A stretch of 35,837 nucleotides of DNA from the NCBI GenBank assembly GCA_021372815.1, contig JAJFTS010000009.1:1-35837 (forward strand), written 5' to 3'. Made by a program: the position numbers and the translations under genes. The stretch comes from Deltaproteobacteria bacterium (lineage in GTDB: Bacteria; Desulfobacterota; Syntrophia; Syntrophales; Smithellaceae). Shown in pieces: positions 29,773 through 34,031 of this stretch (its first letter is position 1; every line of letters starts with the position of its first letter). The notes beneath the pieces were generated by a model. It was given only the letters and a program-made list of their open reading frames with translations. It was not told the DNA's origin and searched no databases.

Positions 29773-31200
29773 ATGGTTCTTTACAAATTTGCTGCCGCAA
29801 GAGAAAATGAATCCGGTACGTTAATGGAAGTTAGCCCTTTAAAATCAGCTTTAAAAAATTTTTTCACTTTCTGGAAACCAACGTTGTCCAGAAGATTGAC
29901 CCTGTCCTTTACCGTTTTCGGTCTGGTCATCGGCTACGCCGTTTTTATTTTCTTTGCCGTTACCTCGACCAATACCTTCGTTAAACTGACATCCGATTCG
30001 ATTCAACGGTATCTGGAATCCGTTTCCAGAGAAAGTATGAGCGAAAATCAGGATGAACTTCTTAAGATCATCAACCAGCGCATGATCAGCATTGTCAACG
30101 AAGCGAAAGCTTTTCAAGGAATATTTCCCGATTTGAAATTCGATCTTTATTTGCAGAAGGACAGGTCGTGGCAGCACACTTTCATGAATGAAGAGGGAGC
30201 CGTTAAATCGGAAGAGATAAACAGTCCGGCCGTTTCCGCGACGCTGGAGAAGGTGAAAGTCAAAAGGGTTCTGACCTCTTCGCATTTTTTTTACGGCGCC
30301 AGAGATACGGTTAATGTAAAAATCAATATCAGTCCCATTGGAAGCAATTATACGCAAATAATTTCCTTCGATATTCATCGCGAAGGATTTCTGAAAATCA
30401 TCAGAGAAAATATCTACAAGGCGATTCTTTTCTTTTTCCTTTTGCTGCTTATTTCACGCACACTGGGACAGATTTTCAGCGCCCGGCTGGCCCGGCCCAT
30501 CGAGCAGCTTTCACGGGAGGCGGAAATCATCGCCTCGGGACAGTATGAGCGCCGTTTTACAACCGGACGAAAAGATGAAATCGGAATGCTGGCGGAAGCG
30601 CTCAATACCATGGCTTCCCGGATTATCGACGGGACAAGGGAAAGAGAAAATATTCTGATCGGAATATTGATTGCTCTGACCAGGGCGATTGATGCCAAGT
30701 CGCCGTGGACCGCGGGCCACAGCGAGCGGGTTACCAGATTTGCGGAATTAATCGGCCGCGGCCTGAACCTGAGTGACGATCAGATGCAGGTTCTGACGGT
30801 TTCCGCCATTCTCCACGACATCGGCAAAATCGCCGTTCCGGAACAGATTCTGGATAAACCGGGAAAGCTGACCGATGAAGAATTCGCCGTTGTCAAGAAA
30901 CATCCGCGGGCGGGAGCGGACATCATTTCCTCCATTCCTTCTTATGAAAAGATTCTCCCGGGAATCCTCCATCATCACGAGCGCTGGGAGGGAGGCGGCT
31001 ACCCGCAGGGCCTTCGGGAAAAGGATATTCCTCTTTTTGCGAGAATTATCTGTATCGCCGATGTTTATGACGCGCTGACGGAAGACCGTCCTTACCGCAA
31101 GGCCTGGAGCCGGGAAGAGGTCTTCAAATTTTTTGAAGAGCAGAAGGGAAAAATGTTCGATCCGGAACTCGTGGATATTTTCCTTAAGCTCGACTTTTAA
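29773..31200 (+). CDS. HD-GYP cyclic-di-GMP phosphodiesterase with HAMP domain
   Basis: A 475-residue membrane receptor. It has a first membrane helix near 39-60, an extracytoplasmic sensor region to about 205, a second helix (ILFFFLLLLISR) near 215, a HAMP domain near 230-285 (ARPIEQLSREAEIIASG), and an HD-GYP domain: GHSERV near 315, ILHDIGKIAVPEQIL near 345, HHERWEGGGYP near 400 and DVYDALTEDRPYR. HD-GYP enzymes hydrolyse cyclic-di-GMP, so it should lower this messenger in response to an envelope signal; the ligand is unknown. No Shine-Dalgarno is seen before the ATG at 29773; an in-frame ATG at 29824 is an alternative. Its stop overlaps the convergent DUF3443 stop by three bases. Confidence 0.93.
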   Translation: MVLYKFAAARENESGTLMEVSPLKSALKNFFTFWKPTLSRRLTLSFTVFGLVIGYAVFIFFAVTSTNTFVKLTSDSIQRYLESVSRESMSENQDELLKIINQRMISIVNEAKAFQGIFPDLKFDLYLQKDRSWQHTFMNEEGAVKSEEINSPAVSATLEKVKVKRVLTSSHFFYGARDTVNVKINISPIGSNYTQIISFDIHREGFLKIIRENIYKAILFFFLLLLISRTLGQIFSARLARPIEQLSREAEIIASGQYERRFTTGRKDEIGMLAEALNTMASRIIDGTRERENILIGILIALTRAIDAKSPWTAGHSERVTRFAELIGRGLNLSDDQMQVLTVSAILHDIGKIAVPEQILDKPGKLTDEEFAVVKKHPRAGADIISSIPSYEKILPGILHHHERWEGGGYPQGLREKDIPLFARIICIADVYDALTEDRPYRKAWSREEVFKFFEEQKGKMFDPELVDIFLKLDF

Positions 31201-32864
31201 TAAGCCAGATAGGGGCCGGTGCCGATGCTCGATGTTTTCCCCTCAATTCCGACATAAACGCTTCGTCCCAGGAAAAACGGGAGTCCCCAGTCAAACGATT
31301 CGTAAGTACCGCCCAGTTCGCTAAAAACATTGTTTACGGAAGCAAAAAGAGTTGAAGCGTTGCCTATCTGAAACGAAACAGTGTAATTTCCTTCAATGGT
31401 CGCGGACAAACTCTGAGTGGAAGAAGGACAGTACCAATCACCGCATATTGTAAGAGCAGTCACGTAATTTCTGTTAAAGAATAATCCGTTTGATCCGCTG
31501 TCCATGAAACTGTCGCTGTAGCTTATTCCGTTAAAAGCAGTAGTGAATTCTCCGTTGGCATCCGTTGCAAAAGCGGCGGTAATTACGGAGGGTGAATTGT
31601 TTGACTGTGTGCCGATGCCCAGAATAAGGATTCCGTCAACAGAGACTGCTCCTCCGCTGGCAACAGCAGGCAGCCGAATGATAAAACCGTTATTGTCCAC
31701 GGGAAGAAGCGCTACCGGATTTTGAACCTGGTCGGATAACGGGACTGCTGTTGTCGTGCATGTGGAACCGCTGCAGGAATAGTAGAATTCAATACTTGAA
31801 GAACTGACGCATTCCGAACCGCAGTCTGCGGTAAAAAGGCCGATGCCCAGAATTCCGTTGTATCCCGCCTGTGTCGGAGACTCGTCCGGCGTCCCGCATG
31901 ATGAAGGAACGGTGCCGAAGGTGGAATCAATAATCTGGATGGGTACATGAGATGCTTTTTCATTTCCCAAAATGACATCGGCTATCTGAACAGGTCCCCA
32001 GTTTGCCGATTCGTCAACATATTGAATACAACTTGCGAGTGATCCGGCGCCGCTTGTTGCTTGTGTCAGGGTAAGATCTGCAAGAACGGATTTGAAAACC
32101 CGCAGACCGATACTTCCCGTATCCAGAAGAATATCATTGATTGTTTTGCAATTGGAAGTGCCCGGTTCACAGACGGTGACGCTGACACAAGGCTTGTTTA
32201 CGTAAGAGCTGGCTGAGCAAAGAGAACCATTCACCGAAACTTTCATCACGTTATCCATCGGTGTAACTGTCATTTGGGTGGAATCGGACAAGCCGCTTAA
32301 ACTGGCAGTTATTGTCGCATTCCCCGCGGCAAATGAGGTGGCCAGGCCTTTGGATCCGGTTGTATTGCTGATTGTAGCAACGGACGGCGACGATGAACTC
32401 CAACTTACCACGTTTGTCATAATCTGATTTGTGCCGTTTAACAGTGTTCCCGTGGCGATAAATTGTTGCGTTGCTCCCAGCGCAATAGCCGGGGATGCCG
32501 GAGTTATTGCCAGAGATGTTAGGGTGGCTACCGTCATTGTGGCGGTGCCTGATATGCTTCCTGATGAAGCAGTAATGGTTGTTGTGCCTGCGGCTATGGC
32601 GGTGGCCAGGCCCGAAGAATTGTTGATTGTAGCGACAGCGGTATCGGATGAACTCCACGTCACCGATGCTGTTATATCTTTAGACGAGTTGTCTGAATAG
32701 GTTCCTGTGGCGGTGAATTGTCCGGTTGTTTCCGGGGCGATAGACACGCTTGATGGAGTTATTTCAATAGAGGTTAATGTTGCGGGAGAAGAACCACCGC
32801 CGCCTCCACAACTTATTATCAAAAAGAGAATAAAAACGAAAAAAAAGAGTTTATTTAATTTCAT
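31197..32864 (-). CDS. DUF3443 lipoprotein with aspartic-protease-like motifs and Ig-like repeats
   Basis: A 555-residue lipoprotein. The signal is MKLNKLFFFVFILFLIISC, and CGGGGGSS follows the lipobox. Two bacterial Ig-like (BIG2) repeats follow (LTSIEITPSSVSIAPETTG and LTSLAITPASPAIALGATQ). From about 210 comes a DUF3443 region, with DTGSIGL near 247 and DSGSNGL near 453. Asp-Thr/Ser-Gly in two copies about 206 residues apart is the layout of bilobal pepsin-like proteases, and many cysteines (for example CGSEC) could form disulfides. The start at 32864 overlaps the DUF2844 gene by 14 bases, with AAGGA upstream; a longer start at 32900 would lie inside that gene. Function is unknown; a protease or protease-derived binder is an inference. 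Confidence 0.8.
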   Translation of the reverse strand: MKLNKLFFFVFILFLIISCGGGGGSSPATLTSIEITPSSVSIAPETTGQFTATGTYSDNSSKDITASVTWSSSDTAVATINNSSGLATAIAAGTTTITASSGSISGTATMTVATLTSLAITPASPAIALGATQQFIATGTLLNGTNQIMTNVVSWSSSSPSVATISNTTGSKGLATSFAAGNATITASLSGLSDSTQMTVTPMDNVMKVSVNGSLCSASSYVNKPCVSVTVCEPGTSNCKTINDILLDTGSIGLRVFKSVLADLTLTQATSGAGSLASCIQYVDESANWGPVQIADVILGNEKASHVPIQIIDSTFGTVPSSCGTPDESPTQAGYNGILGIGLFTADCGSECVSSSSIEFYYSCSGSTCTTTAVPLSDQVQNPVALLPVDNNGFIIRLPAVASGGAVSVDGILILGIGTQSNNSPSVITAAFATDANGEFTTAFNGISYSDSFMDSGSNGLFFNRNYVTALTICGDWYCPSSTQSLSATIEGNYTVSFQIGNASTLFASVNNVFSELGGTYESFDWGLPFFLGRSVYVGIEGKTSSIGTGPYLAY

Positions 32865-33336
32865 TAATACCGATTCCTTCAGGTATGAGAGCTGGCACAT
32901 AGGCGCGTCCCTGCAAATTTCTCATGTGACCCCATTTCTCCACGACAATATTATCAGATTTAATCCTCGAGTGTCTGCTCCCCGGCTGTCGCTTTGCGTG
33001 ACTTGCCGCCTTTTTATGTTCGGGAGCGTAGGTTCCCAGAAGCGGTGTCAGATCAGGATGAGTCAGGCCTTTCCAGGCGATACCGAAGACAATGCCGGAA
33101 GACGAAACATATTCCCGGATAATAGTCCCTCCGGACTGGAACTCATGAACGGTGTATTTTGAAGAGGTTACGGTTGCGCTACGGACTGCCTTTAAAGCTT
33201 TCTTATCCGAAGCGATGGAATCGGATGATCCGCCCAGAGCGGCATAAGCCTGTCGCCCGGGAATGATGATCAAAGTCAAGATCAGGCATAGCAAAAAGAC
33301 TGAAAGTTTTTCCGTTGTTATGATTTTTTTTTGCAT
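32851..33336 (-). CDS. DUF2844 secreted protein
   Basis: A 161-residue exported protein of the DUF2844 family. The N-terminus has a long signal peptide with cleavage near AYAALGG. The mature part keeps the family's ALGG opening, a DKKALKAVRSATVTSSKYTVHEFQ-like segment and a G-rich block around GGTIIREYVSSSGIVFGI. The end overlaps the DUF3443 start by 14 bases, and the start lies five bases after the Hrb gene, so the three are one operon. DUF2844 and DUF3443 genes are frequently adjacent, which suggests they act together in the envelope. No enzymatic motif is visible. Confidence 0.85.
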   Translation of the reverse strand: MQKKIITTEKLSVFLLCLILTLIIIPGRQAYAALGGSSDSIASDKKALKAVRSATVTSSKYTVHEFQSGGTIIREYVSSSGIVFGIAWKGLTHPDLTPLLGTYAPEHKKAASHAKRQPGSRHSRIKSDNIVVEKWGHMRNLQGRAYVPALIPEGIGINEIK

Positions 33337-33341
33337 CTTAT

Positions 33342-34031
33342 TTATTTTTCTTTCTCAAATTTCGATTTGTCGGCTCCGCAGACAGGGCATGTCCAGGAAT
33401 CCGGCAAATCTTCAAACTTGGTTCCGGGTGCGATGCCGTTGTCCGGATCGCCCTTTACCGGATCATAAACGTAGCCGCACACGCTGCAAACATAATTGGA
33501 TGCGGCCTGAGGCGCTGTCGCCGGTTCTTCTTTCGAATAAGTCGGAGCGGTTTTCGGTGATCTGCCGCCCTTGACTTTCTGATAATAAGCATACGTCATG
33601 GGGACGGCATCGCTCAATACGTCGCAGTCCACGATATTGCCGATAAAAATGGTATGTGTTCCGCAATCCAGTTCCTTTTCTACTTCCACTTCAATGTAGG
33701 AAACAGCATTTTCCAGAACGATGGGCACTTTGGTTGCCCCTGTTTTTGCTTTTACGTTTTGCAGTTTGTTGACTTCGCGTCCGCTCTTGAAACCGAAAAG
33801 GCCGATAAAAGTCATGGGCGTTTCTTCGGAAAGGATGGAGACGACAAATTTGCGGCTGAGTTTAATCAATTCACTGGTGTAGTTTTGTTTGTTGATGCTG
33901 ATGGCTACGGTTGCCGGATCCGAGGTGACCTGAAACATGGAGTTGGCGATTTGGCCGTTGAATTTACCGTCCTGGCCGGAAGTTACGATATAAAGGCCAT
34001 AGCTGATTTTGTGAAGAGCGGCTCTGTTCAT
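33342..34031 (-). CDS. Flavin reductase-rubredoxin fusion (high molecular weight rubredoxin, Hrb-like)
   Basis: A 229-residue two-domain electron carrier. Residues about 1-155 are a flavin reductase-like split barrel ([37 protein letters not shown]). After a Pro/Ala linker comes a rubredoxin with its two CxxCG motifs, [12 protein letters not shown] near 180 and [13 protein letters not shown] near 214, whose cysteines bind one iron. The arrangement matches Hrb of acetogens and other anaerobes, which takes electrons from NAD(P)H to flavodiiron oxygen or NO reductases; no such partner is in this window. AAGGAG precedes the ATG. It is the first gene of the operon with DUF2844 and DUF3443. Confidence 0.93.

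Follow-up and report, generated by a model that had tools for sequence, protein, structure and literature searches.

A predicted pepsin-fold lipoprotein, DUF3443, and its secreted partner DUF2844 as a candidate envelope protease module in bacteria

Two adjoining genes, encoding proteins of the DUF2844 and DUF3443 families, lie in a 35,837-nucleotide stretch of a Deltaproteobacteria bacterium genome (Smithellaceae; assembly GCA_021372815.1, contig JAJFTS010000009.1, positions 1 to 35,837; hereafter the window). Based on predicted structure, conserved motifs and the shared distribution of the two genes, we consider it fairly likely that they encode an envelope-anchored pepsin-fold endopeptidase (DUF3443) and a co-made secreted partner (DUF2844) controlling its folding or activity. 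Both families are still labelled as of unknown function in the 2025 copy of Pfam. The open literature searched, with subscription papers and preprints outside its scope, holds no mention of either, and searches by accession returned only Plasmodium gene names. Both genes and all of their features described below are on the minus strand, and positions are those of the window.

Predicted fold and active-site motifs of DUF3443

The catalytic region of DUF3443 (352 amino acids (aa), 31200..32255) almost certainly has a pepsin fold, judging from its model. The AlphaFold2 model, made with an alignment of 71 DUF3443 domain sequences that also served for column counts, reached a predicted local distance difference test score (pLDDT) of 95.8 and a predicted template modelling score (pTM) of 0.93. 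A Foldseek search of the Protein Data Bank (PDB) with this model returned 423 matches at E <= 1e-3, and all 50 of the matches listed were pepsin-type aspartic proteases. The best VIA-align match was the Irpex aspartic proteinase 1wkr (Z 24.1, root-mean-square deviation 2.9, 275 residues), and human pepsin 1psn aligned over 266 residues with Z 22.4; the matches spanned the whole model (range 1-352), which shows a bilobal beta fold of two homologous lobes. Template modelling scores lay in a moderate range (about 0.5-0.6), which would be in line with distant kinship and lobes set at different angles.

The first catalytic motif, DTGS, is encoded at 32112..32123 (Asp 45 of the domain, codon 32121-32123) and the second, DSGS, at 31491..31502 (Asp 252, codon 31500-31502). 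An earlier note on this DNA, made from sequence, had placed the motifs about 206 residues apart and read them as the layout of a two-lobed pepsin-like protease; both are present, 207 residues apart, and the two pepsin-like lobes are found in the predicted fold. Counted over 115 distinct near-full-length DUF3443 domains from several phyla, the first Asp is kept in 114 and the second in all 115, so that the conservation of both aspartates, on which the same proposal depended, is borne out and argues that the motifs are not there by chance. The full tetrads are nearly as constant, with DTGS in 98 domains in lobe 1 and DSGS or DTGS in 109 in lobe 2. A catalytic Asp is lost just once, with NTGS for DTGS in a fragmented gene copy (L122:1-901, G297:C58). 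From the fold, the side chains of Asp45 and Asp252 should meet.

Other motifs of the domain were compared with those of pepsins. The first-lobe hydrophobic-hydrophobic-Gly motif, NGILG (31845..31859), has G134 and G137 invariant and I135 and L136 in 70/71 aligned domains. Tyr 79 of the domain (32019..32021) is a candidate flap aromatic that, given its motif and position, presumably corresponds to pepsin Tyr75 and that sits in the model at the hairpin turn between strands 71-78 and 83-96; of the 71 domains, 52 have Phe here and 19 have Tyr. At the second-lobe hydrophobic-hydrophobic-Gly position, assigned by eye, stands DWGLPF (31275..31292), whose G, P and F are invariant in the 71. We consider DUF3443 to be probably an active protease.

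Sequence kinship to aspartic proteases

Matches by sequence are weaker. Among the 71 members, weak Pfam matches to aspartyl-protease models comprised PF20729 (PE-PGRS_C) in 8 (best 1.5e-6) and PF13650 in 18 (best 2.6e-5), while PF00026 was matched in 2, not significantly (best 0.082). The PF20729 match covers the first lobe, scoring 25.2, 22.6 and 16.1 bits in the three members inspected, below the Pfam cut-off of 33 bits. The PF13650 cut-off is passed by two members around the first motif, and a third member matches around the second. A scan with NCBIfam gave nothing useful. Accordingly, structure and motifs group DUF3443 with the pepsin fold, and sequence matches do not place it formally in family A1.

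Gene layout and export

The DUF2844 gene (32851..33336, 161 aa) is followed downstream by the DUF3443 gene (31197..32864, 555 aa with ATG 32864). The window proteins match PF11005 (1.7e-43, 148 bits against a Pfam cut-off of 22.4) and PF11925 (2.8e-130, 435 bits against a cut-off of 25), respectively. An alternative in-frame start of DUF3443 at 32900 opens its longest frame (567 aa). ATG 32864 is the likelier start because it results in a lipoprotein signal, MKLNKLFFFVFILFLIIS followed by Cys and then GGGGG, and has GAAGGA 10 nucleotides (nt) upstream. With this start the two frames overlap by 14 nt (32851..32864, ATGAAATTAAATAA), which is the commonest overlap among relatives (47 of about 100 loci with a DUF2844 neighbour; 4 nt in 11).

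The lipobox IIS-Cys is encoded at 32808..32819 and is followed by GGGGG; a lipobox pattern recurs in 96/116 DUF3443 relatives. Two Big_2 bacterial Ig-like stretches precede the DUF3443 domain in Pfam: the first (PF02368, 32529..32774) matched LigA and teneurin-like chains, and the second, a further PF02368 stretch, has approximate limits of 32268..32525, its extent being taken from the LigA match. The coordinates and family assignments of the earlier note are correct, as are its placing of the DUF3443 start inside the DUF2844 gene (by 14 nt, with the likelier start ATG 32864, not 32900) and its description of a lipoprotein with two Ig-like repeats. Each of ten Cys is conserved in 66 or more of the 71 aligned domains, which suits an exported protein. 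Many members have a short Gly/Ser/Pro linker alone between lipid anchor and domain. A divergent member (L018:5407-7101) has a dockerin type I domain and a CarboxypepD_reg match in place of the Ig-like domains, and is without a lipobox and without an adjoining DUF2844.

The DUF2844 protein begins with a signal peptide (33241..33336) that ends in QAYA before the mature ALGG. At least 90% of the 61 relatives over which DUF2844 conservation was counted keep the Ala preceding the cleavage site and the Leu-Gly following it. Its model is a compact alpha-beta4-alpha-beta3 domain (pLDDT 90.1), whose best structural matches (top match 4h0a, Z 7.1) include N-terminal domains of CAP proteins, which are secreted (Z 6.8-7.1), and BLIP-like or DUF2874 proteins (Z 5.3-5.6). 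No significant sequence match to PepSY was obtained (PepSY_2, 0.088 in 2 of the 61).

Pairing of the two genes across bacteria

Relatives of DUF3443 were gathered by a scan of bacterial genomes, keeping the best 80 of at least 578 confirmed stretches; those kept come from Syntrophaceae, Geobacter-type bacteria, Nitrospirae, Acidobacteria, Bdellovibrio-type bacteria and Burkholderiales, and plasmid-borne copies occur in Burkholderia, Paraburkholderia and Caballeronia. Co-occurrence was counted in 417 genomes, namely a phylum sample of 297 and 120 Burkholderiales. The identical 5 genomes of the phylum sample hold DUF3443 and DUF2844, and among the Burkholderiales DUF3443 is found in 13 and DUF2844 in 12, all 12 shared and with matching copy numbers. 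All 17 DUF2844-bearing genomes in the 417 therefore also hold DUF3443, and no genome in this sample has DUF2844 without it.

In 29 genomes picked for carrying DUF3443, DUF2844 adjoins 48 of 54 DUF3443 copies. A third DUF2844 scored as unpaired (G324 C1 869556) reflects an error of assignment, since a DUF3443 is located 498 nt away. Three loci (L037, L039 and L166) have the reverse order, keeping adjacency without such an overlap. Copy numbers match up to six of each in one genome. No third gene recurs across lineages at a comparable frequency in the relatives' loci, and the module would therefore have two genes. On this evidence DUF2844 is very probably a functional partner of DUF3443; the functional link made in the earlier note now has stronger support, from co-occurrence and adjacency, than was claimed there.

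Paraburkholderia xenovorans LB400 carries six pairs, two of them in tandem (L171 and L173, G324:C1:867940-871930). In the Nitrospirae loci L037:5335-7711 and L039:5368-7675, DUF3443 is without a lipobox and is followed by DUF2844, and the two genes preceding the pair, recognised by eye, are presumably an MsrP/MsrQ-like periplasmic methionine sulfoxide repair pair. A plasmid-borne Burkholderia/Caballeronia subgroup (L008:5851-7161 and L009:5773-7092) has DUF3443 genes without DUF2844, with DTGT as second motif, which sit after a gene for a TAXI-type TRAP solute-binding protein.

Proposed mechanism and alternatives

The lipobox, the signal peptides, the two-lobed fold and the conservation of both aspartates suggest an endopeptidase anchored by lipid in the envelope. 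DUF3443 would be exported and would carry its lipid on the Cys of codon 32808-32810, and its glycine-rich linker and two Ig-like domains would hold it off the membrane, where it may cleave exported or surface proteins by means of the DTGS/DSGS Asp pair and an activated water. DUF2844 would be a small periplasmic protein, translated just ahead of DUF3443 on the same mRNA and acting on the protease in trans, as a folding helper, an inhibitor or both, in substitution for an N-terminal propeptide. Pepsins of family A1 are normally made with an N-terminal propeptide, and the short linker of many DUF3443 members leaves little room for one. Since the partner is secreted, usually made first and on the same mRNA, and never present without the protease in the sampled genomes, a trans-acting folding or inhibitory role, with binding to DUF3443, is the best explanation of DUF2844, and one to which we lean somewhat. 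A stricter version, in which DUF2844 is a trans-supplied propeptide without which DUF3443 could neither fold nor stay silent, and in which the mature N-terminus (x-Leu-Gly) enters the active-site cleft, is speculative and on balance doubtful; if true, it would amount to a two-gene zymogen for a pepsin-type enzyme.

Several observations weigh against the proposal of a protease with a controlling partner. Neither single-sequence nor profile searches of PDB sequences with DUF3443 recovered a pepsin, and hhalign of DUF3443 with human pepsin aligned 12 columns alone, the DTGS segment; because no whole pepsin was thus recovered, homology to A1 rests mainly on the predicted structure. By a column match made by eye, lobe 2 has D322-W323-G324, with a single hydrophobic residue against the two plus Gly of pepsins. 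Phe at the flap, the majority state in relatives, has been tied to weak or unknown activity (PMC2761423). All fold matches of DUF2844 fall below Z 8, the level of trust, and do not establish kinship to inhibitors. Lastly, DUF3443 genes occur without DUF2844 at L008, L009, L018 and L089.

The main rival to a folding or inhibitory role is that DUF2844 is instead the chief substrate, trimmed or matured at the cell surface so that its product is the acting agent. Export and co-production of the two proteins suit such a relationship, as does the mycobacterial protease PecA, which cleaves itself and co-secreted surface proteins (PMC6819658). However, DUF2844 is modelled, mostly with confidence, as a single compact domain that lacks a long linker open to cleavage, and its being made first on the same mRNA fits a chaperone or inhibitor at least equally well, leaving the substrate role rather unlikely.

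We regard as similarly improbable that DUF3443 is a non-catalytic pepsin-fold binding protein, comparable to the plant xylanase-inhibitor proteins, with DUF2844 as its binding partner. The second-lobe Asp-Trp-Gly and the frequent flap Phe deviate from pepsins in the way this would allow, and the bacterial pepsin-fold protein PE_PGRS16 was inactive when tested (reported in PMC6819658). Nonetheless, pseudoenzymes usually lose one Asp, whereas DUF3443 retains both, with the flanking Thr/Ser-Gly-Ser/Thr, in almost all of the 115 relatives, and Tyr occupies the flap position in the window copy. That the genes are linked by descent and overlap alone, as operon hitchhikers with no shared function, is highly improbable: overlap does make separation costly, and the correlated divergence of the two genes (r 0.87 over 60 pairs) is expected from common descent as well, for which reason we rejected it as evidence of contact, but the absence of DUF2844-only genomes among the 417 sampled, the matched copy numbers and the adjacency kept in reversed-order loci all speak for a shared function.

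Neighbouring genes

Two genes bordering the pair were rejected as further members of the module. A flavin reductase-rubredoxin fusion gene (33342-34031, minus strand) ends 5 nt upstream of the DUF2844 start and may share its transcript here; it is near the pair only in the close Syntrophaceae-type relatives L011-L013, at varying distance. On the plus strand, a HAMP and HD-domain (HD-GYP-like) sensor gene (29773-31200) is convergent with DUF3443 and overlaps its end by 4 nt. Its relatives are scattered over few loci and match via common signalling domains only; no match to it was found in relative L012, which instead has a MoxR-type ATPase gene after DUF3443.

Relation to known aspartic proteases

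Pepsin-type proteases are described as common in eukaryotes and rare in bacteria, where most are described as cytoplasmic (PMC2761423, PMC6819658). Like the family A1 pepsins of clan AA, DUF3443 is predicted to be two-lobed over its whole domain (Z 22-24), carries DTGS and DSGS, has an NGILG-type psi-loop motif in lobe 1 and a presumed flap hairpin with an aromatic residue, and is secreted and cysteine-rich. It differs from them in that sequence matches over the whole domain are not significant, Arg (in DTGSxGLR) takes the place of pepsin Trp39, lobe 2 carries Asp-Trp-Gly, and the protein has a lipid anchor and a separate partner gene.

The closest working precedent is PecA, a surface pepsin-fold enzyme of mycobacteria with DTG and DSG motifs, in which Asp293 is needed to cleave itself and other surface proteins (PMC6819658). 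PecA/PE_PGRS35 and PE_PGRS16, the proteins of PF20729, are surface-located bacterial pepsin-fold proteins with DTG/DSG and give the best sequence match outside DUF3443, although this match is below the Pfam cut-off. Type VII secretion exports PecA by way of a PE domain, and the aspartic domain of PecA is shorter (a 265-position profile), whereas DUF3443 occurs as a lipoprotein in Gram-negative-type bacteria and has DUF2844 as its partner. Two pepsin-type lobes and two catalytic Asp are also shared by shewasins and other bacterial pepsin homologues; in contrast to the exported, cysteine-rich DUF3443, shewasin-type proteins have no signal peptides and are predicted to be cytoplasmic (Rawlings and Bateman 2009, PMC2761423, which mentions no DUF family). 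RloA of Pseudomonas is likewise a secreted bacterial aspartic protease with operon partners, but a one-lobe retropepsin-type enzyme (PMC12239564), whereas DUF3443 has both lobes in one chain. For DUF2844, the PepSY/BLIP-like and CAP-associated N-terminal domains are comparable as small secreted alpha/beta domains, although the structural likeness is weak (Z 5.3-7.1, below 8) and sequence matches are not significant.

Significance

If the proposed reading holds, two curated families of unknown function would resolve into a single envelope protease module, present in up to six copies per genome. The module spans Syntrophaceae, Geobacter relatives, Nitrospirae, Acidobacteria, Bdellovibrio relatives and Burkholderiales, and would widen the range of pepsin-type enzymes to many kinds of bacteria in which they have been thought rare. 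The reading gives the pair a testable function, including possible inhibition of DUF3443 by pepstatin, and would provide bacterial material on the origin of two-lobed pepsins and on how a pepsin fold may be controlled without a built-in propeptide.

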